DNA from: Eubacterium sp.
GTDB taxonomy: Bacteria > Bacillota > Clostridia > Lachnospirales > Lachnospiraceae
DNA: 64,000 nucleotides
Reading direction: 5' to 3'
NCBI GenBank assembly: GCA_017433295.1
Contig: JAFRHL010000026.1
Coordinates: 62,001-126,000, forward strand
Shown in pieces: positions 25,643-41,025 of this stretch (within the stretch, counting starts at the first letter, position 1; each line of letters opens with the position of its first letter). Made by a program: the position numbers and the translations under genes. Under the pieces are notes generated by a model. It worked only from the letters and a program-made list of their open reading frames with translations. It had not been told where the DNA came from and did not search any database.

Positions 25643-27465
25643 CGATTATGACTGAAGAACGTTTAAAAGAATTATATATACAGATCAAAGAGCTGGAGGA
25701 AGAGGGCCGGTGGATGGATCTGGTTCCGGTCTACCAGGAATGCATCCAAATCTCCATAGCCATCAATGGCGAACTTCATGACGAAACGCTGCGGCTGTAT
25801 ATTGAGTATGGCGGATTACTTCGTAATCTGGGCAGGTTCGACGAGTCTCTTGAAGCCCTTCAGACTGCTCTGCGTATAGTAGCTGCCTCAAAGGGAACCA
25901 GTCATCTGGACTACGCTTCCACCCTGGTCAATCTCGCAAACCTACTGCGTATGATGAAGCAAAACGAGGAAAGTGAACGTCTCTTCCTGAAAGCGAAAAA
26001 GCTTTTTGAAGAAAAGAATGCTGTCACACTGGTGCAGTATGCCAGCCTTTGCAATAATCTGGGGCTCCTTTACCAGCAGATGGATCGCTATGAGGAAGCC
26101 ATCCCCCTACATAAGATATGTCTTTCCATATTCAAAGGTGATCCGCAATATGAGGTACTCTATGGAGTAACTTTAAATAATCTGGTAGATCCCTATAAGA
26201 ATACCGGGCGGAGAGAGAAAGCCATCGAATGCCTAAGACAGAGCATTTCCATCTTCCGTAAAAATATTAAAACCTGCCCTGTCCTTTACGCCACCACCCT
26301 GAATAACCTGGGCGCCATATATTATGAGGACGGCGAGTACCAGAAGGCTCTGGATTGCTTCAAAATTGCCCTGGATACCAGCGAGAAAAGAATGGGTCCT
26401 CTCAGCCAGTGCTTTAAGATAAGCAAGCAAAACTACGAAATGGCTCTTTCCAAAGTCCAGAAACAGGCTTTTGAAGATTCCCACAGGGATCAGTTCCTGC
26501 AAAGCGACCGGCAAATTGACATCAATATCAAGGGGCTTGCCTTATGTGAAGCTTATTTTTATGATGTATGCTATCCCATGCTGCAGAAAGAATTTGCCGA
26601 CCGCCTTCCCCGGATGGCTGCGGGCCTTGTGGGTGAAGGCTCCGAGTGCTATGGATTTGATGATGAGATTTCAAGAGACCATGATTTCGGACCCTCTTTC
26701 CAGATATTCATTCCGAAAGAAGACATGGAAATATACGGTGATGAGTTAAAGAAAAAGGTTGCCGGGCTTCCGGCTGCCTACGGCCCCTTTGAAGCGAGAA
26801 ACGCCTGCGCTTTAGGAGAAGGCAGGGTGGGTGTTCTGGCCATTGAGGATTTCTATGATAAATTCCTTTCCATCCATGAGCTACCGGCCACCAACCGTCT
26901 CTGGCTGGCAATGAATGACATCTCATTATCCACAGCCACCAACGGTAAGGTCTTCTTTGATAACCTGGGCAGATTCTCCGAGATCCGGGAGGGACTTCTG
27001 AAGCATTATCCAGATGATGTCCGCATAAAAAGAATTGCCTACGAATGTACACAGATTGCCCAGAGCGGTCAGTACAACTTCCCCCGTTCTCTGCAGCGGG
27101 GTCAGTATGTTGCGGCCCAGCTGGCCCTGACGGAATTCCTGCATCATTTTATGTCCTTTGTATACCTGATCAACCGGGTCTACAAGCCATATTATAAGTG
27201 GGAACATGAGGGACTTAAAAAGCTGCCCCTCTTTGGACAGATGGCCCATAAAGAGCTTGGAAAGCTGGTATTGATCTCCCTGGATGAAAAAGCCAAATAT
27301 GCTGTTTTCGTTGTGGAGTCTCTCTGTAAAAAAGCCATACAGCTTTTGAAAAAAGAAGGCTTAAGTGACTGTGGCAGCGATTTCCTTCTGGATCACGCAC
27401 CCTATGTATTGAGCCATGCAGAGGATGAAGCAATCAAGTATTCCAACCCATGGCTGGAGAAATAA
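25627..27465 (+). CDS. TPR protein with C-terminal DUF4037 nucleotidyltransferase-like domain
   Basis: 612 residues; the start at 25627 overlaps gene C, and an ATG at 25648 is an alternative. Residues 10-290 are about six TPR units (DESLEALQTALRIV, YASLCNNLGLLYQQMDRYEEAI, ATTLNNLGAIYYEDGEYQKAL), a protein-binding scaffold. The C-terminal half matches DUF4037: GEGSECYGFDDEISRDHDFG, where the acidic residues resemble a minimal nucleotidyltransferase metal site. No signal peptide. May modify a partner or nucleotide; substrate not known. Followed by a hairpin. Confidence 0.82.
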   Translation: MGEKIAIMTEERLKELYIQIKELEEEGRWMDLVPVYQECIQISIAINGELHDETLRLYIEYGGLLRNLGRFDESLEALQTALRIVAASKGTSHLDYASTLVNLANLLRMMKQNEESERLFLKAKKLFEEKNAVTLVQYASLCNNLGLLYQQMDRYEEAIPLHKICLSIFKGDPQYEVLYGVTLNNLVDPYKNTGRREKAIECLRQSISIFRKNIKTCPVLYATTLNNLGAIYYEDGEYQKALDCFKIALDTSEKRMGPLSQCFKISKQNYEMALSKVQKQAFEDSHRDQFLQSDRQIDINIKGLALCEAYFYDVCYPMLQKEFADRLPRMAAGLVGEGSECYGFDDEISRDHDFGPSFQIFIPKEDMEIYGDELKKKVAGLPAAYGPFEARNACALGEGRVGVLAIEDFYDKFLSIHELPATNRLWLAMNDISLSTATNGKVFFDNLGRFSEIREGLLKHYPDDVRIKRIAYECTQIAQSGQYNFPRSLQRGQYVAAQLALTEFLHHFMSFVYLINRVYKPYYKWEHEGLKKLPLFGQMAHKELGKLVLISLDEKAKYAVFVVESLCKKAIQLLKKEGLSDCGSDFLLDHAPYVLSHAEDEAIKYSNPWLEK

Positions 27466-27470
27466 AAAAA

Positions 27471-27533
27471 GACTAAAAAGGATGACGGGCCTGTCAGGGA
27501 TGTCAGCTAATGCTCCCGACAGGCTCGCCGTCA
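27471..27533 (-). terminator. Hairpin between convergent genes
   Basis: Imperfect stem built from GACGG-GCCTGTC and GACAGGC-CCGTC, overlapping the last codons of the leftward HExxH gene, followed on the minus strand by T-rich CTTTTTAGTCTTTTTTT. Confidence 0.6.
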
Positions 27534-28225
27534 GATATTCCGGCACTTTTATATATTTCATCCATATGCGGCAGTATCTTAAAGAAATCTTTCTCTTCCA
27601 TAATCTTGAACAATTTCTGGTAAATATCCTTCTCTTCTTTCAGATCATCCAGACAAAATCCAAGTATATCCTCTTTGTTCTCAAAGTGTGACGCATATCC
27701 CATAAGATACATCAGGTAACGAAGATAAACATGAAAGGCCTGATGAGAGGGGTTTTCTATAAACCATGCTCTGGAAAGCTCCGCCTGATGAAGAGTATCA
27801 CTCACCAGTTTTCTTAAGGATATCTCCCTGTGGGCAGAGGGAAGCACGCATTTGTCCGGGTCAAGTCCCTTTGGATAAAGCTTTTCCAGCGCCCAGCCCA
27901 GTGCCCGCCTGCTGGCATGATACTCTGAATAGGTGTTCATATACAGGTAGATCTTACGCATGACCTTATATTCATACGGCTGTGTAAGAAAATCATAAAG
28001 ATGGGTGAATTCATGCCATAAAATATAATCTACGTAATCACTTCGATAAGAATGAATATCTTTGTTTAAATGAAGTATCCAACGACCGGAATACAACTCC
28101 TTGATATCAAAGGAGGAATCTATGCCTTTTTCTGCATCAAAACGAACTTCTTCAATCTGAACGGAACTCTCAAGATGATACTTTTCTTTATAAATATCCC
28201 ATATTTTGTTGACGTATTTCAGCAT
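27503..28225 (-). CDS. Putative HExxH zinc metallopeptidase, second paralogue
   Basis: About 240 residues; ATG at 28225 has GAAGGTG 12 bp upstream, while ATG at 28234 directly abuts the previous stop. Zincin motif ILWHEFTHLYDFL (His near 71) and a later TYSEYHASRRALGWAL, both matched in the protein at 17542-18405. No signal peptide or membrane helix; the rest is helical. Immediately downstream of the AraC-type response regulator (TGA then ATG), so part of the PocR/AraC transcript. Target unknown. Confidence 0.75.
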   Translation of the reverse strand: MLKYVNKIWDIYKEKYHLESSVQIEEVRFDAEKGIDSSFDIKELYSGRWILHLNKDIHSYRSDYVDYILWHEFTHLYDFLTQPYEYKVMRKIYLYMNTYSEYHASRRALGWALEKLYPKGLDPDKCVLPSAHREISLRKLVSDTLHQAELSRAWFIENPSHQAFHVYLRYLMYLMGYASHFENKEDILGFCLDDLKEEKDIYQKLFKIMEEKDFFKILPHMDEIYKSAGISDGEPVGSIS

Positions 28226-28234
28226 AATGATCAT

Positions 28235-29242
28235 TCACCTTCTTCTGGAGTAATGATTCATGAAGGCCGATGGTGTCATGCCTTCGTATTTTTTAAATAT
28301 TTTGCAGAAATAACCCGCTTCGCTATAACCAAGAAGAAACGAGATATCTGAGATATTCATATCACTGGAAACCATATACTGTTTGGCTTTATGAATCTTT
28401 CTCAGGTGAATATAATCAACCACACTGATGTGATAGTATTTTTTGAAAATCCTGCTGAGATATCCGCTGCTGATCCCAGCCTGATCTGCCAGCTCAGAGA
28501 TTGAGATCTCATAATTTCTGTGGTTCTCTATGTACTGGAGGGCCCGGTTCATATGGGTGTACTTTATGACACACAACTGACGGAATACTTCCGTGACTAC
28601 CTGTACCAGCCAGCAGTAACAGAGTATTTCATTTTCTGTCATCCGGGAGGTCAGTTCAAATTTCTGCAGATAGTAATTCATCTGTGTCTTATCCATACCG
28701 GGGACCTGATACATTAAGCCGGCTCCGATTTCCTCAAGCACAGCCTTGCGGTCCTCCTGAACAACCGTCTCAAATACCTGGCCCGTTACTGACTTGACGG
28801 ACTCATATGCCTGCTTGTAATTTCTACTGTCTATCTCAGAGAACAGATCCACACAATATTCCTGACTCCCGTTTTCACCGGGGATACAGGTTTCATGGAG
28901 CAGAGAGGAGATCCTCTCCCGGGAAACGGGCTTTAAAAGGTATTCATCCAGCCCGGACATCATCCAGTTTCTGAGCAGGTTCAGATTACAGTAATTGGTA
29001 AGGATAAAAACCATAGTGGAAGGAACCAGTTTCTTGATCCTGCGGCAGATGGATATCCCGCTTTCCGTTCCCACCACCACATCAGCAAAAACCACCTGCG
29101 GATGATGATTATTAAATATGCGGATGGCTTCATCACTTGTCTCCGCGACTCCTATCAGCCTGCATTCTTCAATACCTTCCATTATTTTTCGAAATGCTTT
29201 CTGAAAAAGACTTTCCTGGTCAATAAGCATAACATTAACCAT
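28235..29242 (-). CDS. Response regulator with AraC-type DNA-binding domain
   Basis: 335 residues: receiver domain (1-120) with Asp54 (VVFADVVVG), Thr82 and Lys104 (LLKPVS) present, though the acidic pair is reduced to Asp8-Gln9; a middle linker of about 100 residues; and a C-terminal AraC/XylS domain with two helix-turn-helix units (ISISELADQAGISSGYLSRI and ISDISFLLGYSEAGYFCKIF). It follows the PocR sensor by 15 bp and is its likely partner. By family precedent it would activate the nearby dehydratase genes; inverted repeats at 30591 and 36207 are candidate sites. Confidence 0.92.
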   Translation of the reverse strand: MVNVMLIDQESLFQKAFRKIMEGIEECRLIGVAETSDEAIRIFNNHHPQVVFADVVVGTESGISICRRIKKLVPSTMVFILTNYCNLNLLRNWMMSGLDEYLLKPVSRERISSLLHETCIPGENGSQEYCVDLFSEIDSRNYKQAYESVKSVTGQVFETVVQEDRKAVLEEIGAGLMYQVPGMDKTQMNYYLQKFELTSRMTENEILCYCWLVQVVTEVFRQLCVIKYTHMNRALQYIENHRNYEISISELADQAGISSGYLSRIFKKYYHISVVDYIHLRKIHKAKQYMVSSDMNISDISFLLGYSEAGYFCKIFKKYEGMTPSAFMNHYSRRR

Positions 29243-29257
29243 ATCATCACCTCGTTT

Positions 29258-30493
29258 TTATAGCAGAGTTTTATCTAAGCGCAGGGTAACGATTCCCCGG
29301 CCGAGATTAAGCTTATAATGATCCCCATAGAAATACTTAAGGCGCTTATCTATATCCTCCAGCTGAAGACGGAGCTGCGTATCACCCATGATCCTCCCCG
29401 GTTCCGGAAGCTGATCCTGCAGTGTTTTATTTCGATTTTCCATCTGCATGGTCACCCCGCAGTAGTCACCGTCCGACTCCACATCAAGAAAAAGAACGCT
29501 TCTGTATGAAGATGGGATAATTCCGTAATTGATTACATATCCCAGGAGAGAGAAAAGGATAAGGACAGGTATTTTGGTCTCTTTACAGTCCTCTGAAAGC
29601 TTAATATGATAATCAAACCGCTTATCAAGCCTGGTCCGCAATACAAAAAGATACCTTTCCAGCTGTGCCAGTTCCGATTCTATCGTCACCAGTTCACTGG
29701 TCTCGTCCAGATAATACCGCATGATAGCCGCAATATTTATAACCAGCTCTTCTGTTCCGGAAGCATCCTCCAAAACAGCATAATTGGCTATGGTGGTCAG
29801 CATGTTTAACATAAACTGGGGAGGAATACGGTTATTTAAATGCCTGAATTCAATTTTTTCCAGTTCTTCACGCAGGGAGGCGATCCATGTCTTGTATTCC
29901 CTGACCTGTGTCCGGCTTTCAGACATGGTGGTCAGTGAGCGCCTGAGGTTTTCCTTTTCACCCATATCCTTAAGGACTGTGAAGATAAGATTCCCAATAG
30001 CCATGATCTTACTTTTGGGCAGGACCGGAACCTGATCCCGAAGCTTACTGTCTTTTGCATCCACATCATCAGAATATATAATGCTGTCAGAACCTGCCGC
30101 ACTGTTGCCGTCCGAATCGTGAAGGCAGTAAACCCTTCCTCCCACCACAGCTCCCAGATATTGTTCATTTACGATGATGGGTACTGCGATGCTGCTGAAA
30201 CCATGCGGACATTCGAACATATAGGGACAGCACTTAATGGCTGCCTTGGCAGCGGCATAGGCAGCTGTCAGCTGGCACTCCGAACACTCTCTTAAGTCTT
30301 TGTGTTCTTCACAATAACTGTTACAGATTGTTTCATTTATCACACTTTTTCCTCTGTAATCTATTACGGAGAAGGAAAAGTCCGTTGCCGTTGACAGCTG
30401 TTGTATTAAATTCTGCAGATTTTGTGTTCCAAATATCCCAGGAAGACTGATTTCCTTATCACTGATATAACGGTCCCCATTAATATGTTTCAT
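29258..30493 (-). CDS. PocR-domain sensor with a LytS-type pseudokinase domain
   Basis: 411 residues. Residues 15-175 form a PocR ligand-binding domain with its cysteine set (CNSYCEEH, CSEC, CCPYMFECPHG), used by regulators of diol and related metabolism. After a coiled-coil linker comes a LytS-type kinase region, but the phosphoacceptor His is Gln226 (IPPQFMLNMLTTI in place of NPHFLFN), the ATP-binding Asn of the N box is gone (SLLGYVINYG) and the glycine-rich G box is missing. So it should bind ligand and signal without kinase activity. No membrane helix. RBS AAAAGGATT. Paired with the AraC regulator. Confidence 0.88.
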   Translation of the reverse strand: MKHINGDRYISDKEISLPGIFGTQNLQNLIQQLSTATDFSFSVIDYRGKSVINETICNSYCEEHKDLRECSECQLTAAYAAAKAAIKCCPYMFECPHGFSSIAVPIIVNEQYLGAVVGGRVYCLHDSDGNSAAGSDSIIYSDDVDAKDSKLRDQVPVLPKSKIMAIGNLIFTVLKDMGEKENLRRSLTTMSESRTQVREYKTWIASLREELEKIEFRHLNNRIPPQFMLNMLTTIANYAVLEDASGTEELVINIAAIMRYYLDETSELVTIESELAQLERYLFVLRTRLDKRFDYHIKLSEDCKETKIPVLILFSLLGYVINYGIIPSSYRSVLFLDVESDGDYCGVTMQMENRNKTLQDQLPEPGRIMGDTQLRLQLEDIDKRLKYFYGDHYKLNLGRGIVTLRLDKTLL

Positions 30494-30590
30494 TTTTAAT
30501 CCTTTTCTATCTTATATTTTCCATACTGTTATTTTATCATTAATTGTGACAAATTGAATTTGATTTTTTGTGGACTTATAGTACAGTTTG

Positions 30591-30657
30591 GTAATATATT
30601 GAATCTTAATGAAATTTTATTGAATTTTATTTTGTTTTAATATTGACAATATATTAC
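30591..30657. promoter_or_regulatory. Inverted repeat upstream of the PocR sensor gene
   Basis: GTAATATATTG at 30591-30601 and CAATATATTAC at 30647-30657 are perfect 11-bp inverted copies flanking 45 AT-rich bases that also contain TTGAAT repeats. The position before the pocR-like start at 30493 suggests an operator, possibly autoregulatory. Confidence 0.4.
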
Positions 30658-30671
30658 TCTTTATAGCAAAA

Positions 30672-30699
30672 TACGGCTGTATGATGACATACAGCCGTA
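30672..30699 (-). terminator. Terminator after the rubredoxin-like gene
   Basis: Perfect 12-bp stem TACGGCTGTATG/CATACAGCCGTA with a 4-nt loop, followed on the minus strand by TTTTG. Ends the dehydratase operon. Confidence 0.8.
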
Positions 30700-30721
30700 C
30701 AAACCTTTTAAGTCTGATATT

Positions 30722-30952
30722 TCAGTTAAGTCTTTGAAAGCCCTGCTGACCAACATTACAGATGGGGCAGTGAGAAAGAGTTGTAAAGGGCTTTCCCTGT
30801 TCCTTCTCATTATAAATCCATCCACAAACCCTGCAGCGGTAGATTCCATCCAGAGGATGGTCTTCTACGTTAGGATTTCCTCCTTTTTCTGTAAGGTCAT
30901 CCACAGCAGACTTAATATGAAAACTGTGTAACTGCTCTAAAATAGTTCCCAT
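30722..30952 (-). CDS. Small rubredoxin-like (rubrerythrin C-terminal type) protein
   Basis: 76 residues from ATG at 30952 with AGGAGG 10 bp upstream; longer starts are less well placed. The C-terminal half is an iron-binding rubredoxin knuckle: IYRCRVCGWIYNEK and LSHCPICNVGQQ (two CxxC pairs). The N-terminal part is short and helical. Probably carries electrons; an oxygen-protection role for the adjacent glycyl radical enzyme is plausible but inferred. Downstream of metK on the same strand. Confidence 0.85.
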   Translation of the reverse strand: MGTILEQLHSFHIKSAVDDLTEKGGNPNVEDHPLDGIYRCRVCGWIYNEKEQGKPFTTLSHCPICNVGQQGFQRLN

Positions 30953-31058
30953 AATTATCATTCCTCCTCTATAGTCAAGAGAAATCATTTTGATCAAAAG
31001 TTGTGAGAGTGTTGAGACCGATCGGGGAACTACGAACATTTGGATCTTTTTATTTCGG

Positions 31059-31086
31059 GCCCGGAATTGCCGGAGCCTTTCCGGGC
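31059..31086 (-). terminator. Hairpin after metK
   Basis: GCCCGGAA/TTCCGGGC, 8-bp stem with a GC-rich loop, between metK and the rubredoxin-like gene. There is no T run, so it may pause or protect rather than terminate. Confidence 0.35.
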
Positions 31087-31104
31087 GAATATTAGAAACC
31101 AGTT

Positions 31105-32295
31105 TTAGCTGGGATCTATGATTGCTTCAGCAATATAGGAAATTGCTTTCTTCTGCAGGTCGGCAACCTTGTCTGTCCTTTCCCAGGGAAGATCAAGTTC
31201 AGGCCTGCCAAAGTGACCATAGGCTGCCAATGGCTTATAAGTAACAGATGTGAGAGAGAGGTTATTTATAATACCGGCAACACTAAAGTCAAACACTTCT
31301 TCTACTGCTTTTTCAATAATTTCCTTCGGGATCTCCTCTGATCCGAAGGTATCGATTTTTACAGATACCGGGTCCGGTACGCCAATGGCATAGGCCAGGT
31401 TTACCTCGCATTTTCTGCAAAGACCCGCTGCCACCACATTGACAGCTGCATATCTTGCCATATAGGCTGCGGAACGGTCAACCTTTGTGGGATCCTTTCC
31501 CGAGAAAGCTCCCCCGCCATGTCTGGCGATCCCTCCATAGGTATCTACAATGATCTTCCTGCCTGTAAGTCCGGTATCTCCCTCAGGACCTCCTACCACA
31601 AAGCGGCCTGTGGGATTGATATGGATCTTAATATCAGGAAGCATATCCTTTTTATCTATTACAGCATCTATGACCTCCCGTTTTACATCGGCGCGAAGCT
31701 TCTCAACGGAAACATCCGCACTGTGCTGAGCGGAGATCACCACTGTCTGGATACCTGCAATCTCACCATCCTTGTCATAAGCCACTGTAACCTGGGACTT
31801 GCCGTCCGGATAAAGATAGGGAAGAATCCCCGCCTTTCTCACATAGGTTAGCCTTTTGGTAAGCTTATGAGCCAGGGAGATGGACAGAGGCATATATTCC
31901 TCCGTTTCATCACAGGCGTATCCATACATCATGCCCTGATCACCGGCGCCTATCTTACCATCGGTCTGATTAACGCCCTGGGCAATGTCCGGGGACTGGG
32001 AGATCACATTGGTAAGCACCAGGCAGTTTCTCCCGTCCAGTCCTTTCTTCGCACTGTCATAGCCGATCTCAAGAACCGCTTCTCTGACCTTTTTCACCAG
32101 GTCCGGTCTGGCTGATGAAGTAACCTCACCGGAAAGGAAAATGGTATTCTTTGAGGCAACGGTTTCCATTGCCACATGAGAAGCCGGATCCTCTGAGAGA
32201 TAGGCGTCTAACAATGTATCAGAAACAATATCACATAATTTATCAGGATGTCCTTCTGTTACAGATTCGGAAGTCAGCAGGTAATACTTGCCCAT
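31105..32295 (-). CDS. metK: S-adenosylmethionine synthetase
   Basis: Makes SAM from methionine and ATP. 396 residues from ATG at 32295 (GGAGGT 8 bp upstream). Signature stretches: LTSESVTEGHPDKLCDIVSD, GAGDQGMMYGYACDET, GRFVVGGPEGDTGLTGRK and GGGAFSGKDPTKVDRSAAY. It begins 5 bp after the stop of the glycyl-radical activase, an enzyme that consumes SAM, so this copy may be dedicated to the locus. Whether another metK exists in the genome is not known from the window. Confidence 0.97.
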   Translation of the reverse strand: MGKYYLLTSESVTEGHPDKLCDIVSDTLLDAYLSEDPASHVAMETVASKNTIFLSGEVTSSARPDLVKKVREAVLEIGYDSAKKGLDGRNCLVLTNVISQSPDIAQGVNQTDGKIGAGDQGMMYGYACDETEEYMPLSISLAHKLTKRLTYVRKAGILPYLYPDGKSQVTVAYDKDGEIAGIQTVVISAQHSADVSVEKLRADVKREVIDAVIDKKDMLPDIKIHINPTGRFVVGGPEGDTGLTGRKIIVDTYGGIARHGGGAFSGKDPTKVDRSAAYMARYAAVNVVAAGLCRKCEVNLAYAIGVPDPVSVKIDTFGSEEIPKEIIEKAVEEVFDFSVAGIINNLSLTSVTYKPLAAYGHFGRPELDLPWERTDKVADLQKKAISYIAEAIIDPS

Positions 32296-32300
32296 GTGCA

Positions 32301-33233
32301 TCAACCTCCAATCTTACAGGTGAGGCCTTCCTCTTCTACTATCGCTTTTAACTCTTCCATAAATTCGGCTTCCGGGCTCGTTGTACCTTCCATCTCATAT
32401 TCCCTGCCCATCATACCATACTTATTGGATCCGAGATCGTGATAAGGCAGCAGATGAAGCTCGTTCACATTATGGAGATACTTAGTAAAGGCCGCGATGC
32501 CCTTTATGGTTTTCTTATCAGCATTAAAACCTGGAATTACCGGAACGCGGATCACCATCTCTTTGGCAAGATGAGAGATATATAAGGCATTCTTAAGAAT
32601 CTGCTCATTGCCCACTCCGGTGAATTCTTTATGGATATCAGAATCTATATGCTTGATATCCATCATCACATAATCAAGCAATGGAATGATCTCATCCAGC
32701 ACCGTTTCTGACGCAAGCCCTGTGGTCTCAATGGCTGTGGTCCAGCCCACAGACTTACAGGTCTTAAGCAGCTCAGCCAGAAACTTGTGCTGCATAAGGG
32801 CTTCTCCACCCGATATTGTGATTCCGCCTCCAGATCTTCTGTATATGGTACGGTCCTTGTATAATTCTATCATAACCTCCTCGACGGTCATCCATTTACC
32901 GGACATCTCGAGAGCCTTATGATAACATACGTCTACACATTTGCCGCAGCAGATACATTTGCTGTGGTCAATTTTACCCGGGTAAAACAAGTTAGAAGCG
33001 CCTGTTGGACATACAACCTCACAATTGCCGCAGCCAACGCAGTTCTGTTCTTTGAACATGACTACCGGTTTTAACTCCTGAGATTCAGGATTGCAGCACC
33101 ATTTACAGCGGAGGGGACATCCGTTTAAGAATACAATGGTTCTTACACCAGGTCCGTCGTTTACGGAGAATCTCTGCATATTATACACGAGACCCTTCAC
33201 GGTAACGTCACTGTAAGGTTCCATATTTTCCAT
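32301..33233 (-). CDS. Glycyl-radical enzyme activating protein (radical SAM)
   Basis: Generates the glycyl radical on its partner using SAM. 310 residues from ATG at 33233 with GGAGGAA upstream. N-terminal radical-SAM cluster motif CPLRCKWC (Cys39, Cys43, Cys46), then an inserted pair of [4Fe-4S] ferredoxin motifs (CVGCGNCEVVCPTG and CICCGKCVDVC), then GGGITISGGEALMQ. The two extra clusters are typical of activases for non-PFL glycyl radical enzymes such as diol dehydratases. Directly downstream of the dehydratase and 5 bp upstream of metK. Confidence 0.95.
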   Translation of the reverse strand: MENMEPYSDVTVKGLVYNMQRFSVNDGPGVRTIVFLNGCPLRCKWCCNPESQELKPVVMFKEQNCVGCGNCEVVCPTGASNLFYPGKIDHSKCICCGKCVDVCYHKALEMSGKWMTVEEVMIELYKDRTIYRRSGGGITISGGEALMQHKFLAELLKTCKSVGWTTAIETTGLASETVLDEIIPLLDYVMMDIKHIDSDIHKEFTGVGNEQILKNALYISHLAKEMVIRVPVIPGFNADKKTIKGIAAFTKYLHNVNELHLLPYHDLGSNKYGMMGREYEMEGTTSPEAEFMEELKAIVEEEGLTCKIGG

Positions 33234-33262
33234 ATACACTTCCTCCAGCGTAACCGTGGATC

Positions 33263-33286
33263 ATACCCTGCCCTCAGACAGGGTAT
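33263..33286 (-). other. Intercistronic hairpin between dehydratase and activase
   Basis: ATACCCTG/CAGGGTAT, 8-bp perfect stem, 8-nt loop, no T run. May tune the ratio of enzyme to activase by attenuation or mRNA processing. Confidence 0.45.
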
Positions 33287-33314
33287 ATCCATCTTTATGT
33301 ATCAACTGCCGAGA

Positions 33315-35909
33315 TTAGAAGGTCTGCTCTGTACGAGCGATGATGTCATCCTGAACTTCCTTGGCCAGTACGGTCCAGTGTGCGGAATATCCGGCAACAC
33401 GAACTACCAGGTCTTTGTAGTTCTCGGGATGAGCCTGAGCATCCAGCAGAGTCTCTTTATCGATTACGTTGAACTGTACATGCATACCCTTCTTATCGAA
33501 GTAGTTACGTACAACTGCCGCGAAATTCATAAGTCCCTGATCACCTGCTACTGCGGATGGTAAGAACTTCTGGTTGTAAAGGGTACCGTTGGAGATGTTC
33601 AGCTGGTCGAGCTTAGCTACGGAGTTACCTGCAGCTGTCGGGCCCTTAACATCATGACCCTGACGTGGGGAAACACCATCAGCCAGAGGAGCGTTGGAAT
33701 AACGTCCGTCCGGAAGAGCCTGTACATCTTTACCAAAGAGTACGTTAGCGGATACCGGGTAGCATCCGGCCTGATACTGGCCGCCACGCGGGTTCTTATA
33801 TTTCTCTACCTCATAGGAGTAGATCTGGGTAGCACGACGTGCATGCATATCAACTTCGTCAATATCATTACCGAAGCAAGGTGTAGCATCAAGAATCTGA
33901 CGGATTCTGTCATACTCAGCCCTCTTGGCATCGCTGATGGCGTTGTTTGCTGTAGAAACATTGCTGAAGGATGTCTTAGCGCCCTTCTCGGCAAGGATCT
34001 TGGCAACAACAGCGTTGATGATTGCTTCCATATCATCTGTGCTGGAAACATTGCTTGTCTTGTTCTGAACTGCTGCTGCAGAGCCTTCCGGCGGAGCACT
34101 CATAACTACGAACGGGCCATCATAGCAGCCTGCGCCGAGCTCAGCACCGAAGTTATGCTCCATAGCTTCATAAATCTGCTGCATTGTGAGGTCTTTGTCC
34201 TCAAATACATGCTTCTGGATACAGTAGATAGCATCACCTGTATCGATGTTACCGAATGCCTGCGGTCCTGTGAAGTTGTAGTGAGCTCCACCTTCCATAA
34301 CAGTCTTACCTCTTGCGATACAGTCCTCAACAAGTGCGGACATGAATGGCAGCGGTGCACGCTCTTTATGAGCGATATCTACAGCGTTGTCGGACTCAAC
34401 CAGCTTCTCAACGAAGTAAGCGATCTCTGTCTGAAGTGCTTCATAAACATCTTCGATGGATGTCCACTCAGGCATAGTCTTGCAAACCGGTCCTAACTGC
34501 TTGCCATCACGGTTCTTACCACCATGGATAGCGATATCGAATACCTTGGCTACATTGAAGAATGCGGAGTCATGCCATCCCTCTGTCTTATGCGGGCACT
34601 GGGGCTCAACGCAGCCGATGATGCAGTAATTACGTGCATCTGCCAGAGTTAATCCTCTGTTACACAGAGCAGGAATAATAGCCTCGTCATTGTAGAATGC
34701 CGGAACACCCATACCTAATCTTGCCAGCTCGCAGGCACGAAGTAAGAACTCGTCCGGAGTCTGGTTGTGGATACGTACGGAGAAGGAAGGAGCAGGCAGT
34801 CTAACATGGGCGGAAGCATTCATACACATGTAGGATACCGGGTTTGTGGCATCAAGACCGTCTTCTGTCTGTCCGCCGCAGCCGAAGTTCTGGAATACAG
34901 CGTATCCTGCAAAGGCCTGATCTGATACATCATCACGGGTCTTGTTTACATGGTTCAGTAATACGAAGATACAGTCAATCAGTTCCTGAGCGAACTCAGT
35001 TGTGATGTTCTTGTCTGCCTTCAGGAATGGCCACATATACTGGTCAAAACGTCCTGGGGAAATGGAGTGTCCGTTGGCCTCGATCTGAACTAATGCCTGA
35101 ACGAACCAGAAGGACTGGCATGCCTCATAGAAGTTTGTTGCAGGATTTTCCGGAACGCGGTCACAGTTCTTGGAAATCTGAAGTAATTCAGCCTTTCTTA
35201 CAGGATCTGTGCAGGTAGCTGCCATCTCAGCTGCTTTCTTGCTGTATCTCTTAGCAAAGTTAATAGCTGCATTGTAGGAAATGATAACTGCCTCATAGAA
35301 TGTTCTCTTCTGTAAGTATTCGGGATCATTGCGGTCGAGCTTGCCCATAGCTTCAACAACTTCAGCGATAATGCCCTTGAAACCTTTGTTAAGAACCTTG
35401 CCGTAGTCTACGCAAACATGTCCGATACCACCAAAGTAGTAGTTACCTACTGTGAATACGCCGCCTGCCTGGCAGTCCAGAGCTTCCTGGCTCATGTAGG
35501 ATGTAGCTAACTCACTTGTGGTTTTACCCTTCCAGTATTTGAATACTTCATGAAGGATATCAGCAGTCTCTTCTGTGATTACGAATGGGTCACACATACG
35601 TGTAGCCATTGTCTTGAACTCTTTCTCTACCCAGTCAAAAGAGAACTCAGGACAAAGGTTTGTGGAACGAGGTTTAACGGAAAGAGCACCAACGATAAGC
35701 TCGTTGTCACGGATAACAACAGGAAGATTATTGAAGATCTTCTCGTTAGCTTTTGCTCTTCTCATTACAGCAGGCATACCCTCTGTCTCTTTGTAAGACT
35801 CTGTAATCAATACGGCTCTATACGGTTCTACTTCTGGTACAGCATTAACAACTTCTGCCTTTAAAGCTTTAATACGTGCGGTTGGCTCTGTAAACCCTTT
35901 TGCTATCAT
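33315..35909 (-). CDS. B12-independent glycerol/1,2-propanediol dehydratase-type glycyl radical enzyme with an internal insertion
   Basis: 864 residues from ATG at 35909 (AAGGAGG 8 bp upstream). Key residues fall at the same numbers as in Clostridium butyricum glycerol dehydratase: His164 (GIGHVC), His281-Ser282 (NGHSIS), Cys433 and Glu435 (IIGCVEPQ) and Asp447 (GWHDSAFF). The glycyl radical loop RVAGYSAHW has Gly840 rather than Gly763, which equals a 77-residue insertion between them, also matching total length 864 versus 787. The insertion (about 603-675) is low-complexity plus an amphipathic helix MEAIINAVVAKILAE. It should dehydrate glycerol or propanediol; which is not decided. No alcohol dehydrogenase follows. 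Confidence 0.92.
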   Translation of the reverse strand: MIAKGFTEPTARIKALKAEVVNAVPEVEPYRAVLITESYKETEGMPAVMRRAKANEKIFNNLPVVIRDNELIVGALSVKPRSTNLCPEFSFDWVEKEFKTMATRMCDPFVITEETADILHEVFKYWKGKTTSELATSYMSQEALDCQAGGVFTVGNYYFGGIGHVCVDYGKVLNKGFKGIIAEVVEAMGKLDRNDPEYLQKRTFYEAVIISYNAAINFAKRYSKKAAEMAATCTDPVRKAELLQISKNCDRVPENPATNFYEACQSFWFVQALVQIEANGHSISPGRFDQYMWPFLKADKNITTEFAQELIDCIFVLLNHVNKTRDDVSDQAFAGYAVFQNFGCGGQTEDGLDATNPVSYMCMNASAHVRLPAPSFSVRIHNQTPDEFLLRACELARLGMGVPAFYNDEAIIPALCNRGLTLADARNYCIIGCVEPQCPHKTEGWHDSAFFNVAKVFDIAIHGGKNRDGKQLGPVCKTMPEWTSIEDVYEALQTEIAYFVEKLVESDNAVDIAHKERAPLPFMSALVEDCIARGKTVMEGGAHYNFTGPQAFGNIDTGDAIYCIQKHVFEDKDLTMQQIYEAMEHNFGAELGAGCYDGPFVVMSAPPEGSAAAVQNKTSNVSSTDDMEAIINAVVAKILAEKGAKTSFSNVSTANNAISDAKRAEYDRIRQILDATPCFGNDIDEVDMHARRATQIYSYEVEKYKNPRGGQYQAGCYPVSANVLFGKDVQALPDGRYSNAPLADGVSPRQGHDVKGPTAAGNSVAKLDQLNISNGTLYNQKFLPSAVAGDQGLMNFAAVVRNYFDKKGMHVQFNVIDKETLLDAQAHPENYKDLVVRVAGYSAHWTVLAKEVQDDIIARTEQTF

Positions 35910-35932
35910 TACATTTTCCTCCTTAATAGATG

Positions 35933-35967
35933 GCACATCACTTTCCGCAAAGTGAGAGATGATGTGC
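35933..35967 (-). promoter_or_regulatory. Hairpin in the dehydratase leader
   Basis: GCACATCA and TGATGTGC pair around an inner CTTTC/AAAG(T)G helix, 24 bp upstream of the dehydratase ATG. No T run on the minus strand. Confidence 0.45.
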
Positions 35968-36206
35968 GGTTAAAAATGTCCTCGAGATGATGACTCAGAC
36001 GGGAATGTCCCCATTCCCATATCCCAACCTGTAAATCAACCAATACTGAGTTTTCATCTGCATATCATTATACTTTTATAAAATAAACATCGTTAGGAAT
36101 ATCTAAACAGAGGATTTGCAATAATCCTTTTGGAAATGATTTCTATTTTTCGAGATGTGTTCTGCAAAAAGTTAAAAAGAACTGATAATTATTTGTTAAC
36201 ACAAAG

Positions 36207-36250
36207 AATTGCATCTGATGTAAAGGAACAATTTGTTATCAGATGCAATT
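36207..36250. promoter_or_regulatory. 13-bp perfect inverted repeat, candidate operator
   Basis: AATTGCATCTGAT and ATCAGATGCAATT separated by 18 bp, about 300 bp upstream of the dehydratase start and 100 bp from the flavodoxin-like gene end. The size fits a dimeric regulator; a weak terminator for the flavodoxin-like gene is the alternative. Confidence 0.5.
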
Positions 36251-36347
36251 AATTTTATCCACATTTTTGTCTGATTGATCCGGTTGGCAGGAGGAAATGT
36301 CAATAGGAAAATTTATAACATTCTTTGTAGTATCCTGATCAGAAATA

Positions 36348-36953
36348 TTACACGACCGTCTTAAGCCATGCCTGGAAATCACTTTTTTCCTCGTCCGCTC
36401 CGGCAAGGATCATACCAAGCTTCACGGCCTCTGCTGTATACTCCGGATGCTCATTTACCGCATCGGGTCCTCCCAGGCCATTTGCCAGGAGCAGGCCTGA
36501 ACATTCGAATTTCAGCAGGGCATTGACCAGTTCAAATTCTTCCCTGATCGGGCCGAAGGCTGCAGGATTGGGATTGTTGGCTGTGGCAATCAGGCAGGAT
36601 TCTTTCACTGTACACAGGTCTCTGCCCTTTGGCGAAGCGTATGGATAAAGACGGTCCACCACTTTTTTGATCTGTGAAGAAAAGCTCTTCCAGTAAACCG
36701 GTGTCGTCAGTACAAGAACATCCGCCCAGCACATTTTCTCATGAAGCTTCATCCCGTCATCCTTAAGTCCACAGAAGCCTTTTTTATGGCAATTGCCATC
36801 ACCGTGGCATCCATCCATGTCGAGAGAACAGGCATCCATCATACAGACACTTGCGCCTGCAGCCTCAGCTCCCTTAACCAGCGCTTTTGCCAGTTTGTTG
36901 GAATTACCGTTTGCTCTCGGGCTTCCTGTAATAACTAAAATTTTCTTACTCAT
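36348..36953 (-). CDS. Flavodoxin-family NAD(P)H-dependent oxidoreductase
   Basis: 201 residues with the FMN-binding start ILVITGSPRANGNSNKLAKAL, a cysteine-rich stretch (CSLDMDGCHGDGNCHKKGFC) that could hold an iron-sulfur or metal site, and VLTTPVYWKSFSSQIKKVVDRLY. This is the iron-sulfur flavoprotein-like branch of the flavodoxin fold. Its start overlaps the stop of the tautomerase gene by 4 bp (ATGA), so the two are coupled. Substrate unknown. Confidence 0.9.
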   Translation of the reverse strand: MSKKILVITGSPRANGNSNKLAKALVKGAEAAGASVCMMDACSLDMDGCHGDGNCHKKGFCGLKDDGMKLHEKMCWADVLVLTTPVYWKSFSSQIKKVVDRLYPYASPKGRDLCTVKESCLIATANNPNPAAFGPIREEFELVNALLKFECSGLLLANGLGGPDAVNEHPEYTAEAVKLGMILAGADEEKSDFQAWLKTVV

Positions 36954-37345
36954 TGTTTTCCTCCTTTATTAAAGTGCAGCAAATTCCCTACAATATCCTT
37001 TTTATGATAAGTCCACAGGGGGGAACTGCGGTAATAGGCGAAGATCCGGTCCTCAGGAATCTGCGTATAACGCATGACCGTCTCGGTCATTTTAGAAAGA
37101 ACCTGTTCAAGAATGTCATGGTCATATTTCTCAAAGACCTCTCTGATCACTTCCACCTCAATGGATGCGCAGGGGGCATTTGCCTCTTCCCCGAAAAGCA
37201 TAAACTGTTCATCCGGAAAGTCCGCCATCACAAAGGCTCCCTTCTCGCAGGGGATCAGTTCGATGGCCTCTTTAAACTCCACGGTCATCCGGTACTTCTT
37301 CTCCCGGTTAATATAAATATTGGTCTTTGTTGTGATTCTTGGCAT
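36950..37345 (-). CDS. MIF-like tautomerase family protein
   Basis: 131 residues from ATG at 37345 with GGAGGTGG 6 bp upstream; the longer form from 37363 would hide the N-terminal proline. Starts MPRITTKTNIYINREKK, giving Pro2 as catalytic base, followed by AIELIPCEKGAFVMADFPDE and ASIEVEVI, the layout of the macrophage migration inhibitory factor-like family. Coupled with the downstream flavodoxin-like enzyme. Confidence 0.75.
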   Translation of the reverse strand: MPRITTKTNIYINREKKYRMTVEFKEAIELIPCEKGAFVMADFPDEQFMLFGEEANAPCASIEVEVIREVFEKYDHDILEQVLSKMTETVMRYTQIPEDRIFAYYRSSPLWTYHKKDIVGNLLHFNKGGKQ

Positions 37346-37555
37346 ACTGTACCACCTCCACATATTTATCCATTTACATCATATAATAAATCCCTGAAGG
37401 AGTTTTGCAGAAAACTGTCCATTAAACTGGAATTCCACACACTGTCCTCTGTGTCATGAATTTTTCCATCTTATGTGCATTTTCGTTAGCATTGTCCCTT
37501 CTTTTACGGGTTATAATTGTAATTCCGAGAGGCCATTTTACAAAGGAGGATCAAA

Positions 37556-38071
37556 ATGTCAGCATCTATCTCAGACAATTCAGAAAAGGTCCTGTTCCAG
37601 AGTGATCTTTGGGAAAATATAAGCAGGATCCAGAAGGGCACCCGTGTGGTATTCAAGACCCAGCAGGATAATGGTATTTTCAAGGTTAGTTTTATTGCCC
37701 GGCTGAAAGCGGGATTTGTAAAAAACAAAATTGATCTTATCAAGAACGACCACATGATACTCCAGAAGAAAGGCTCCGGCTACTTTCTCCTGTTCGAAGC
37801 AGCAAAGGATGCTTTTATCAGGGAAGATGATGAGAGAGAGTATTATGAGGAAGCACTATCCTGTTCCGATTATGATTACAAAATACTGATAAAAAAGGAC
37901 AGGTCTGCCCGGCCTGAAATTAAAAAGCCAGCTCCGGCTGATGGTCCTGATGCTGCCTTAAACAGGATCAACGCCATGCTGGAGGAACACGGTATCACGG
38001 ATGCCGATCCCTCTTCCGCAGTAAATGAGTTTATGAAAACTTGGAAGCTGGGTCACCCTGAGGAAAATTAA
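37556..38071 (+). CDS. Hypothetical soluble protein
   Basis: 171 residues, RBS AAAGGAGG. N-terminal half mixed alpha/beta (RVVFKTQQDNGIFKVSFIARL), then an acidic-basic linker with Ala and Pro (KKPAPADGPDAALNRIN) and a short C-terminal helix. No recognised domain, membrane segment or cysteine motif except one Cys. Orientation differs from its left neighbours. Confidence 0.7.
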   Translation: MSASISDNSEKVLFQSDLWENISRIQKGTRVVFKTQQDNGIFKVSFIARLKAGFVKNKIDLIKNDHMILQKKGSGYFLLFEAAKDAFIREDDEREYYEEALSCSDYDYKILIKKDRSARPEIKKPAPADGPDAALNRINAMLEEHGITDADPSSAVNEFMKTWKLGHPEEN

Positions 38072-38091
38072 ATCTGATAAAGGAATCTTCT

Positions 38092-38154
38092 ATGGAATTA
38101 TATGAAACAGTTCTTTTATATAATGTGAATGATAAAACAAGATACGATCTATAG
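38092..38154 (+). pseudogene. 20-codon ORF, probably the start of a lost gene
   Basis: ATG with RBS AAGGAA reads MELYETVLLYNVNDKTRYDL then stop. The start resembles DUF3783-like proteins (LLYN motif), after which the frame runs into the cbiQ remnant in another frame. Consistent with a deletion joining two genes. Confidence 0.35.
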
Positions 38155-38276
38155 CCAGATGCTATGATGGAGAACTGAATTTCCTTGAGGATGTGAAACC
38201 GGTAAAATCCCGGCAGATCCTTTTGGCGGTCGTTTTCCTGTGCACGCTGTGCGCAATATGGTACCTTACCAAATAA
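38136..38276 (+). pseudogene. 3-prime remnant of cbiQ (ECF cobalt/nickel transporter permease)
   Basis: Open between stops, 46 codons. Reads ARCYDGELNFLEDVKPVKSR then a final membrane helix QILLAVVFLCTLCAIWYLTK and stop. The ARxYDGELxxLED sequence before a last helix is characteristic of CbiQ C-termini. All upstream transmembrane sequence is lost. It directly precedes the cbiO-like gene, the normal order. Confidence 0.55.
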
Positions 38277-39106
38277 TCCCCTGCCAGGTCTTCCGGCGCC
38301 GTAAAGCCAAGACGACTACGAAACCCGGCAACCGAACGCATTTGTTAGATAAAAAATACATTTATAGAGGAGAAAAAATCGCGGTACTTGGTTCCAACGG
38401 AGCCGGCAAATCCACTTTCTTCCTCAATATAAACGGGGTATTGAAATCGACCTCCGGCCAGATCTGCTACCGGGGAAAGACCATAGACAAAAAGAGTCTC
38501 AATGAACTGAGAAAAAATGTCGGGATCGTATTCCAGGATGCCGACAACCAGATCATCGCTTCAACTGTGGAGGCGGAGGTTTCCTTCGGCCCCATGAATT
38601 TGAAGCTTCCCAGGGAGGAAGTAGTATCCCGGGTCGACAGAGCCTTAGCTTATATGAATATCACCGAATATAAAAAGAGAGCGCCCCACCATTTAAGCGG
38701 CGGCGAAAAGAAACGGGTCAGCATTGCCGACATCATAGCCATGGAATCTGAAGTCATCATCTTCGATGAACCGACGGCGGCCTTAGACCCCCTGAATGCT
38801 GCCATGCTGGAGGAAGTCCTCGGCAAAATGAACGAAGAAGGCAGGACTATGCTGATTTCCACCCATGATGTGGACTTTGCCTACCGCTGGGCTGACCGGG
38901 CCGTCGTATTTTCCAACGGACAGATCATCGCGGATGATACCTCCTTAAACATTTTTAAGCAGGAGGACATTTTAGAACAGGCCAGCCTGAAGCATCCCAC
39001 CATGTTTGATGTGTACCGGATCATGGAGGAAAACAAGATGATTCCGGAGGGAGGAGACTATCCCAGAAACATCCGGGTATTTCAAAAAGCAATTGAAAAC
39101 AGGTAA
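38240..39106 (+). CDS. CbiO-like ATPase of an ECF cobalt/nickel transporter, N-terminus damaged
   Basis: 288 residues if the GTG at 38240 is used. From residue 43 it is a normal CbiO: YRGEKIAVLGSNGAGKST (Walker A), GIVFQDADNQII (Q loop), LSGGEKKR (signature), VIIFDEPTAALDP (Walker B) and ISTHDVDFA. The first 40 residues are basic, unlike the usual beta-strand start, and have no RBS; only PGNRTHLLDKKYIY hints at the normal YPDGTxALxxxxxxI. With permease genes gone it is probably non-functional, though the ATPase core is intact. Confidence 0.75.
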   Translation: MHAVRNMVPYQIIPCQVFRRRKAKTTTKPGNRTHLLDKKYIYRGEKIAVLGSNGAGKSTFFLNINGVLKSTSGQICYRGKTIDKKSLNELRKNVGIVFQDADNQIIASTVEAEVSFGPMNLKLPREEVVSRVDRALAYMNITEYKKRAPHHLSGGEKKRVSIADIIAMESEVIIFDEPTAALDPLNAAMLEEVLGKMNEEGRTMLISTHDVDFAYRWADRAVVFSNGQIIADDTSLNIFKQEDILEQASLKHPTMFDVYRIMEENKMIPEGGDYPRNIRVFQKAIENR

Positions 39107-39237
39107 TTCCTTTTTTCCATAATAGGGTCTGATATATTACAGAAAAGCCGGCCGCTTTAGTGGTAAACTCTACATATCCATGATTATATTGAACAGAATG
39201 ATTTATGAGCATTTAATAGTTCAGGGGGAGGTTTATC

Positions 39238-41025
39238 ATGTATATTACAAAAGACATTAAGTATGTCGGTGTCAACGACCATCAGGTAGATCTTTTTGAA
39301 GGACAGTATCCTGTGCCCAACGGCATGGCCTATAATTCCTATGTGATCCTTGATGAGCAGGTGGCGGTAATGGATACTGTTGATATCAACTTCGGCAGCG
39401 AATGGCTGATCAACATCGAGAAGGTCCTGGCAGGCCGCCAGCCGGACTACCTCATCATACAGCATATGGAACCCGACCATTCCGCCAATATTGCCAATTT
39501 TATGCAGTATTATAAAGACGCGAAGATCGTCTCTTCCAAAAAGGCCTTTGCCATGATGAAGAATTTCTTCGGAACGGATTTTGAGGGCAGGCAGGTCCTG
39601 GTTGAAAGCGGTTCCACTTTACGTCTTGGAGAACATACCCTCGCCTTTGTGGAAGCTCCCATGGTCCACTGGCCGGAGGTTGTTGTTACTTATGACATCA
39701 AAGATAAAGTTCTGTTCTCCGCAGATGGTCTGGGCAAGTTCGGGGCCAACGATGTGAAGGAAGACTGGGCAGACGAAGCCCGCCGTTACTATATCGGCAT
39801 TGTCGGCATGTACGGCGATTTCGTCCAGGCCCTTCTTAAGGTTGCGGCCACACTGGACATTGAGATCATCTGTCCTACCCATGGACCCGTCCTGAAAGAG
39901 AATCTGGGTTATTACCTCAATCTTTATGATAAATGGTCCTCCTACACACCGGAGGAAGAGGGAATCGTGATCGCCTACACTTCAGTATACGGTCATACAA
40001 AGGAAGCTGCCCTGAGCCTGGCGCGTAATCTCCGGGCAAAGAAGGCACCGACGGTTGTGGTATACGATCTGGCAAGAGATGATATGTCCGCAGCAGTCAG
40101 CGATGCCTTCCGCTACAGCAAGCTGGTCCTTGCCACCACCACCTACAACGGGAGCATGTATCCCTTTATGCGCGACTTCATCCACAGGCTGGTGGAGCAT
40201 AAATTCCGGAAACGGACCGTAGCCCTGATTGAGAACGGCTCCTGGGCTCCCCAGGCGGGCAGGCTCATGAAGGAAATGTTAGGTCAGTGCGAGGACATCG
40301 AATTCACTAAGAATAATGTCCATATCAAATCCGCATTAAGCGAGGAAAACTACGAAGAGATGGAAAACATGGCATATGAATTATGCCAGGAATATATTGA
40401 ACACGATGACGAGCTGGCAAACAAAGAGAACATGTCAGCCCTGTTCAAGATCGGCTATGGCCTCTATGTGATCACCACCAGAGAAGGCAGCAAGGATACC
40501 GGCTGTATCGCCAACTCCGTGACTCAGCTGACCAACTCTCCTAACCGGATCGCCGTAACCCTGAACAAGGCGAACTATACTCATGATCTGATCCTTTCCA
40601 CAAAGAAGATGAATGTGAACTGTCTGTCAGTGGATGCTCCCTTCTCCACTTTCCAGAACTTCGGCTTCCAGAGTGGCAGGGATGTAAATAAATTTGAAAC
40701 ATGGCCATTGCTTCGTTCCAGTAACGGTATTGCCTATCTGCCCAAGTTCATCAACGCTTTCATGTCCCTGGATGTGGAAGCCATGGAGGATCTGGGAACC
40801 CATACCATGTTCATCTGCAGCGTCTCCGAGGCAAGAGTGATCTCCGGAAAAGAGACCATGACTTACAATTACTATCAGGAGCATGTAAAACCGAAGCCTC
40901 AGGCAGCCACAAAGAAGGGTTTTGTATGTCAGGTATGCGGATATATCTACGAGGGGGATGAACTTCCGGCAGATTTTGTATGCCCCATCTGCAAGCATCC
41001 GGCCTCGGACTTTAAGCCACTGTAA
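39238..41025 (+). CDS. Flavodiiron protein with flavin reductase and rubredoxin domains
   Basis: Reduces oxygen (or NO) to protect anaerobic enzymes. 595 residues in four modules: metallo-beta-lactamase-like diiron domain (1-250; QHMEPDHSAN gives the HxExD ligands), flavodoxin domain (255-395; IAYTSVYGHTKEAA), flavin reductase-like domain (405-545; TGCIANSVTQLTNSPNRIAV) and a C-terminal rubredoxin (555-595; CQVCGYIYEG and CPICKHPASDF). The whole electron path is thus on one chain. RBS GGGGGAGG. A stand-alone gene. Confidence 0.96.
   Translation: MYITKDIKYVGVNDHQVDLFEGQYPVPNGMAYNSYVILDEQVAVMDTVDINFGSEWLINIEKVLAGRQPDYLIIQHMEPDHSANIANFMQYYKDAKIVSSKKAFAMMKNFFGTDFEGRQVLVESGSTLRLGEHTLAFVEAPMVHWPEVVVTYDIKDKVLFSADGLGKFGANDVKEDWADEARRYYIGIVGMYGDFVQALLKVAATLDIEIICPTHGPVLKENLGYYLNLYDKWSSYTPEEEGIVIAYTSVYGHTKEAALSLARNLRAKKAPTVVVYDLARDDMSAAVSDAFRYSKLVLATTTYNGSMYPFMRDFIHRLVEHKFRKRTVALIENGSWAPQAGRLMKEMLGQCEDIEFTKNNVHIKSALSEENYEEMENMAYELCQEYIEHDDELANKENMSALFKIGYGLYVITTREGSKDTGCIANSVTQLTNSPNRIAVTLNKANYTHDLILSTKKMNVNCLSVDAPFSTFQNFGFQSGRDVNKFETWPLLRSSNGIAYLPKFINAFMSLDVEAMEDLGTHTMFICSVSEARVISGKETMTYNYYQEHVKPKPQAATKKGFVCQVCGYIYEGDELPADFVCPICKHPASDFKPL

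Follow-up and report, generated by a model that had tools for sequence, protein, structure and literature searches.

A putative shell-less cargo locus in Anaerobutyricum: a propanediol-dehydratase-like glycyl radical enzyme with an internal encapsulation-peptide-like helix

The window analysed here, a stretch of 64,000 nucleotides, encodes a glycyl radical enzyme (GRE) that we regard, with moderate confidence, as a B12-independent dehydratase of the propanediol type with an internal encapsulation peptide (EP), encoded in a cargo satellite devoid of shell genes and co-packaged in the Pdu compartment. This packaging reading is supported by the site of the insertion that holds the helix, the conservation of the helix, its likeness to the N-termini of PduD and PduP, the nested position of the enzyme in a phylogenetic tree and the association of such enzymes with BMC-P genes.

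RESULTS

The glycyl radical enzyme and its insertion

By genus comparison the window belongs to Anaerobutyricum, and its relatives at 87–95% identity are Eubacterium and Lachnospiraceae assemblies together with A. hallii DSM 3353. The enzyme, called GRE1 where its orthologs are included, and the parts of its insertion are located as follows:

33315..35909, minus strand: GRE, putatively of the 1,2-propanediol-dehydratase type, 864 aa, with PFL-like and Gly_radical domains; PFL2/glycerol dehydratase family (Pfam, NCBIfam)
33912..34148, minus strand: insertion in the GRE, residues 588–666, between residues 586 and 590 of 1r8w (HMMER alignment)
34113..34148, minus strand: block GAELGAGCYDGP, which opens the insertion and hardly varies; pN/pS 0.01, pairwise identity 0.987 on average in 13 sequences
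34032..34112, minus strand: left linker, mostly fast changing; pN/pS 0.62 in the tested stretch
33981..34031, minus strand: EP-like helix MEAIINAVVAKILAEKG; pN/pS 0.23 for a 20-residue segment; likeness to PduD and PduP N-termini
33912..33980, minus strand: right linker, fast changing, with the conserved start of the next helix at its end; pN/pS 0.61 in the tested stretch

The start codon is the ATG at 35909, with an AAGGAGG ribosome site at 35918–35924; a GTG lies at 35936, nine codons upstream. From the ATG the protein has 864 residues, compared with 787 in the glycerol dehydratase of C. butyricum (1r8w), which together with 9rco and 5i2a (the R. inulinivorans diol dehydratase) is among the nearest solved chains. 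Both the PFL-like and the glycyl radical domain are present, with the catalytic Cys, Glu and Gly. Residues H164, H281, S282, C433, E435 and D447 carry identical numbers in the GRE and 1r8w, so the number-for-number match up to Asp447 reported in the preliminary description held at the residues checked. The radical glycine of the GRE is Gly840, a shift of 77 relative to residue 763 of the C. butyricum enzyme. At position 339 the GRE has Phe where the C. butyricum enzyme has Tyr, and it reads YPVSANV where the latter reads YPSSINV; around the active site it thus looks more like a propanediol than a glycerol dehydratase. Glycerol dehydratase was rejected as the identity of the enzyme on this residue pattern, which fits the propanediol type without amounting to proof.

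Alignment with characterised glycerol and propanediol dehydratases, a check proposed at the outset, confirmed the insertion relative to 1r8w and revealed extra residues in 5i2a too. The net gain at the insertion site is 76 residues, and the 77th is a single-residue insertion further upstream; the glycine and the total length are indeed shifted by 77, as first noted, but not in one piece. Likewise, the boundaries first given (33885–34103, residues 603–675) captured the insertion but missed 15 residues at its start and included nine ordinary ones at its end. All 12 relatives aligned, comprising 11 Anaerobutyricum loci (A. hallii DSM 3353 among them) and genome G012, share the insertion, which rules out chance or an assembly artefact as its source.

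The insertion occupies the site of the predicted internal EP of GRM3, GRM4 and GRM5 enzymes, all of which carry an insertion of about 60 residues (PMC6325248), compared with the 76 net residues found here. That EPs normally sit at a terminus is no mark of novelty here, since an internal EP at this very site has already been described for propanediol dehydratases of these three types. The refuting observation named in the preliminary description, a segment that is normal in this enzyme clade, applies to the insertion as such; what departs from the norm is a GRE with this insertion at a locus that has no shell genes. Among the closest known systems are the GRM3 enzymes (R. palustris BisB18; R. 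planticola, 9rco), which share with the GRE the family, the insertion site, an EP-like helix between linkers, an activase and often a SAM synthetase. In contrast to GRE1, which has no local shell genes, their locus contains shell genes, and the internal EP of the R. palustris 1,2-propanediol dehydratase, at the same site, is described as two helices (PMC5311937), whereas the aligned GRE1 insertions, read by eye, contain a single conserved helix-like stretch. The 9rco chain is 100% identical to the GRE of locus L075 over 203 N-terminal and 201 C-terminal residues; the L075 gene has the insertion and the 9rco chain does not, so that 9rco appears to be the R. planticola enzyme constructed with the insertion removed. 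The GRM5 diol dehydratase of R. inulinivorans (5i2a/5i2g) also has extra residues at the same site, but its extra piece is shorter, differs in sequence and comes from a shell-bearing fucose/rhamnose locus (PMC6325248). The C. butyricum enzyme resembles the GRE in numbering and catalytic residues up to D447, but has no insertion, has Tyr at 339 instead of Phe, and is described as lacking an EP and any tie to a compartment (PMC5311937).

Conservation of the helix and its likeness to Pdu tags

Over 13 GRE1 sequences pN/pS was 0.23 for the helix segment and 0.62 and 0.61 for the linkers, while the catalytic parts gave 0.095 and 0.070 and block GAELGAGCYDGP gave 0.01; these ratios are rough, with pS at 0.49–0.76 and near saturation. 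A conserved helix between freely changing linkers is the pattern that an EP would be expected to show, and the proposal of an EP-like helix between flexible linkers was borne out to this extent. Block GAELGAGCYDGP comprises twelve residues, including a Cys, within the insertion, and is left unexplained by the EP model.

The helix was first described as amphipathic. For MEAIINAVVAKILAE the Eisenberg moment at 100 degrees was 0.18, which ranks 588th of 859 among the 15-residue windows of the GRE, and at 90 degrees it was 0.44 (rank 73 of 859); in nine relatives (L021 and L024 left out) the moment at 100 degrees was 0.26–0.49. The helix itself stands, but its amphipathicity is weak by the usual measure and moderate at 90 degrees, and the 100-degree moment gave no support for an amphipathic helix.

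When the helix was compared, ungapped and under BLOSUM62, with the N-terminal 45 residues of Pdu proteins, PduD scored 32 and PduP 24, against a maximum of 21 for 93 background N-termini, which were taken from ORFs chosen by length, not all of which are real genes. PduE (15), PduA (14), PduB (13) and PduL (10) fell within the range of the same 93 N-termini. The 12 GRE1 insertions resembled the genome's own PduD N-terminus more (mean 27.7) than did 58 other insertions (20.0), and the same was true of its own PduP N-terminus (33.5 compared with 24.7); the gap was small for the PduP N-terminus of genome G004 (25.3 compared with 22.8). The two groups of insertions are clades, so the p values of this comparison do not represent independent tests. 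An EP elsewhere in the operon was also considered and rejected: the best helix matches were 13 in the activase, 12 in the SAM synthetase, 14 in the kinase, 20 in the regulator and 10 in the rubredoxin-like protein, none above the background of 21.

The operon

The genes that accompany the GRE are:

32301..33239, minus strand: radical SAM activating enzyme; TIGR02494 (glycyl-radical enzyme activating protein family) over cut-off
31105..32304, minus strand: S-adenosylmethionine synthetase, second copy in the genome; TIGR01034 (metK) over cut-off
30722..31039, minus strand: small protein with a rubredoxin-like end, between SAM synthetase and kinase
29258..30493, minus strand: sensor kinase with a PocR-type domain; PF10114 and PF06580 over cut-off
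28235..29242, minus strand: AraC-type response regulator; PF00072 and PF12833 over cut-off

The other SAM synthetase copy, on contig C25, is 58% identical to that of the operon, which is presumably dedicated to the radical enzyme. A SAM synthetase gene was found in the examined flanks of 10 of 11 GRE1 loci and 47 of 60 other loci, and a homologous kinase and regulator in those of 6 of the 11 GRE1 loci. At some other GRE1 loci, homologs of the small protein occupy a different place in the flanks. A B12 riboswitch on the GRE operon was considered and rejected, since no Rfam match reached the gathering score in window positions 26000–39500; the same search of L010/L011, which cover the Pdu locus, gave no match either.

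Orthologous loci and tree

We fetched 80 related loci and found a GRE ORF in 71 of them (nine were dropped), on which the locus counts rest. HMM searches detected a shell gene in the examined flanks of none of the 11 Anaerobutyricum GRE1 loci, among which about 10 kb on both sides could be examined only for L017 and L025, contig ends cutting the rest, and of 56 of the 60 other related GRE loci. The four shell-less exceptions are L055, L086 (which also lacks the EP), L087 (a second kind of Anaerobutyricum GRE) and L092 (at a contig end). In a quick IQ-TREE analysis of 49 rows, the GRE1 clade (support 100) grouped with L053 (SH-aLRT 96), and the pair was nested among shell-linked GREs (90, 98). 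L053 is a GRE from Lachnospiraceae that has a shell gene at a distance of 517 bases; it sits on a long branch, and the program flagged its placement as unsure. The simplest reading is that the local shell of GRE1 was lost or left behind.

Shell genes and the Pdu locus

The genome spans 2.9 Mb and is 91% complete. No PF00936 match (E up to 0.01) was found on the 164-kb contig that contains the window, which extends to the whole contig the earlier remark that the window holds no shell genes. The genome search for BMC shell genes that had been proposed did find them elsewhere, with 14 PF00936 matches (E up to 0.01) on five other contigs. Shell genes in the same locus, a feature of GRM loci, are thus absent for this GRE, both on its contig (PF00936) and in the examined flanks of the 11 orthologous loci.

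The single BMC-P gene of the genome lies inside a B12-dependent Pdu locus on contig C49. There, PduB, PduC, PduD, PduE, PduG, a phosphate propanoyltransferase and an aldehyde dehydrogenase exceeded family cut-offs, and PduA/EutM-like and double BMC-domain proteins, EutN and a PocR-domain kinase are encoded as well; further genes are presumably PduH, PduO, PduQ, PduU and PduV, names that we assigned by gene order. In G004, a genome in a single contig, about 0.84 Mb separates the GRE from the Pdu locus, with 9 of 13 PF00936 matches listed. Away from the Pdu locus of the window's genome, contig C5 (L014, 4217–5625) carries two adjacent weak BMC-domain matches beside a permease-like gene, and solitary BMC-domain genes occur at C23:84253–84447 and C52:35992–36165, the latter PduU-like and adjoining a PduV-like gene.

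Distribution in the genus and family

GRE1, defined at at least 86% identity with partial matches counted, occurs in 16 of 24 genus genomes and in 7 of the 11 that are of good quality. Ten of these 11 have PduC and ten have BMC-P, and both are found in 6 of the 7 that have GRE1; in the seventh, G010, the last Pdu genes lie at a contig start. Four of the 11 have Pdu genes without GRE1. All 12 genus genomes with BMC-P have one copy.

The family set comprised 298 Lachnospiraceae genomes, in 22 of which a GRE was called at E up to 1e-280; of 20 loci compared, L160 contributed no row. BMC-P was present in 21 of the 22 GRE genomes and in 66 of the 276 others (p 1.5e-11), and PduC in 8 of 22 and 13 of 276, respectively (p 2.6e-5). 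Without Anaerobutyricum, BMC-P was present in 19 of 20 GRE genomes (p 1.6e-10) and PduC in 6 of 20 (p 7e-4). All four p values ignore shared descent, and many of the family GREs themselves sit in a shell locus, which bears on both associations.

In genomes G035, G221 and G231 the roughly 20 kb surrounding the GRE showed no shell gene, and BMC-P lies elsewhere, among 10 of 11, 12 of 15 and 10 of 11 PF00936 matches listed, respectively. In two of them, at L177 (G035:C60) and L178 (G221:C8), PduCDE genes and an insertion-bearing GRE are near neighbours in this shell-free stretch. The PduD N-termini near these GREs resemble the PduD tag of the window's own genome (scores 35 and 30, background maximum 25) and show no likeness to the GRE1 helix (15 and 11).

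Other insertion-bearing GREs occur in the genus in G006, G003, G004, G005 and G021. At L148 (G006:C14:9000–23000) a second EP-bearing GRE adjoins a PduP-like aldehyde dehydrogenase (82% identical to that of the Pdu locus) and a kinase and regulator of the PocR type; none of the annotated ORFs there is a shell gene. At L147 (G004:C1:2528000–2542000) and L149 (G003) another such GRE stands beside the PocR-type pair only, and no activase ORF was recognised nearby. L146 (G005:C28) and L153 (G021:C107) hold together genes for a GRE, an activase, a PduB-like and a PduA-like protein (93% identical to the Pdu PduA), with EutN absent from the stretch read; this arrangement is possibly a mini GRM satellite.

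DISCUSSION

In the mechanism that we infer, from the surface position of the insertion and the substrate to binding, co-packaging and the advantage of dispensing with B12, the GRE would descend from GREs of GRM-type compartment loci. Together with its activase and a dedicated SAM synthetase, and with the PocR-type pair where the contig permits a view, it would form a cargo satellite without shell genes. The helix may bind the shell or core of the Pdu compartment, the only one in the genome with a vertex protein, and the GRE would be co-packaged through its loop helix, the activase riding along as has been proposed for GRM3 (PMC5311937). B12-free dehydration could then feed the aldehyde handling by PduP, PduL and PduQ.

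Counting against the packaging reading are the unlike tags of PduE, PduB and PduL, the weak moment at 100 degrees, the single helix, the Pdu loci without GRE1 in 4 of 11 genomes, the missing match to a B12 riboswitch, the invariant block that the model leaves unexplained, the family statistics that ignore descent and the 91% completeness of the genome. The main counterweight to the mechanism is the physiology of A. hallii, which carries GRE1 (locus L024). Propanediol use by E. hallii has been credited to cobalamin-dependent PduCDE in PMC4871866, which contains neither "glycyl" nor "microcompartment", and a review calls propanediol conversion B12-dependent and compartment-bound (PMC7524325). 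The case for a B12-free backup is weakened because E. hallii makes its own pseudovitamin B12 (PMC5605934). Compartment genes are expressed by Anaerobutyricum in human stool (PMC12289924).

An alternative that we consider unlikely is that the helix is a core-assembly or oligomerisation element, which would cluster the GRE independently of a shell, whether Pdu enzymes join in or not. The R. palustris enzyme without its EP is active and more soluble, the full-length form aggregating more, and in the R. inulinivorans crystal the extra piece contributes to an oligomer contact (PMC5311937); the lack of shell genes at the GRE1 locus is also in keeping with such a role. Against it stand the likeness of the helix to the N-termini of PduD and PduP and the near confinement of insertion-bearing GREs to BMC-P genomes (21 of 22). 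The two roles are not mutually exclusive.

It is improbable that the helix is a relic, left from a GRM ancestor that lost its shell and now part of a cytosolic GRE, an option raised in the preliminary description. The place of GRE1 among shell-linked GREs, the local absence of shell genes and the lack of the GRE in some genus members would all fit, but a functionless relic is disfavoured because the helix is conserved (pN/pS 0.23 compared with about 0.6 in the linkers), and the genome does encode a Pdu shell. Very improbable is a second compartment, made with one of the solitary BMC-domain genes (C5, C23, C33 or C52) or from shell genes missing from an assembly that is 91% complete, given that the sole BMC-P gene found sits in the Pdu locus and that no BMC-P genus genome has a second copy.

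Neither the insertion nor the co-occurrence of PduCDE and a GRE is new by itself. Both forms of the enzyme were reported in 28 Clostridiales genomes (PMC9403272), and the Pdu compartment can use either type, with all 20 GRE-form genomes of one set linked to a compartment type (PMC6620236; E. hallii is not named in the main text). In PDU1AB and GRM4, as proposed for the packaged GRE1, a PDU-type shell serves a GRE, but in those loci the two signature enzymes substitute for each other, whereas here both coexist in the genome and the GRE is encoded apart (PMC8217296). Satellite BMC loci (EUT modules of the HO, SPU3 and SPU6 types) are similar in that their enzymes lie far from the main locus and are thought to widen the substrate range of another compartment. 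By the definition in the survey, however, such loci are distal from the main locus, as is that of GRE1, and hold at least one shell gene, of which the GRE1 locus has none (PMC8217296). A shell-less cargo satellite thus falls outside the definitions of both shell-anchored surveys, one of which gathers genes within 12 ORFs of shell genes (PMC8217296), the other likewise starting from shell genes (PMC4207490). Searches of open-licence PMC text turned up no account of this GRE in Anaerobutyricum, nor of loci that encode EP cargo without a shell, and Anaerobutyricum is not named in PMC8156839.

More tentatively, and somewhat short of an even chance in our view, Anaerobutyricum and some other Lachnospiraceae may build hybrid diol compartments, in which one Pdu shell houses PduCDE together with separately encoded and regulated EP-tagged GREs from shell-less satellites. 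If so, cofactor supply could switch the radical chemistry of a single organelle. Surveys that are anchored on shell genes and collect genes within 12 ORFs of them (PMC8217296) miss cargo encoded alone. If the GRE is packaged, the shell locus by itself would not reveal what a compartment contains, and a route from 1,2-propanediol towards propionate and propanol that does without B12 would have been overlooked in a common genus of the human gut. GRE1 would then exemplify, in nature, the transfer of a GRE out of its own type of shell into a B12-dependent type, and its tags lend themselves to direct testing.
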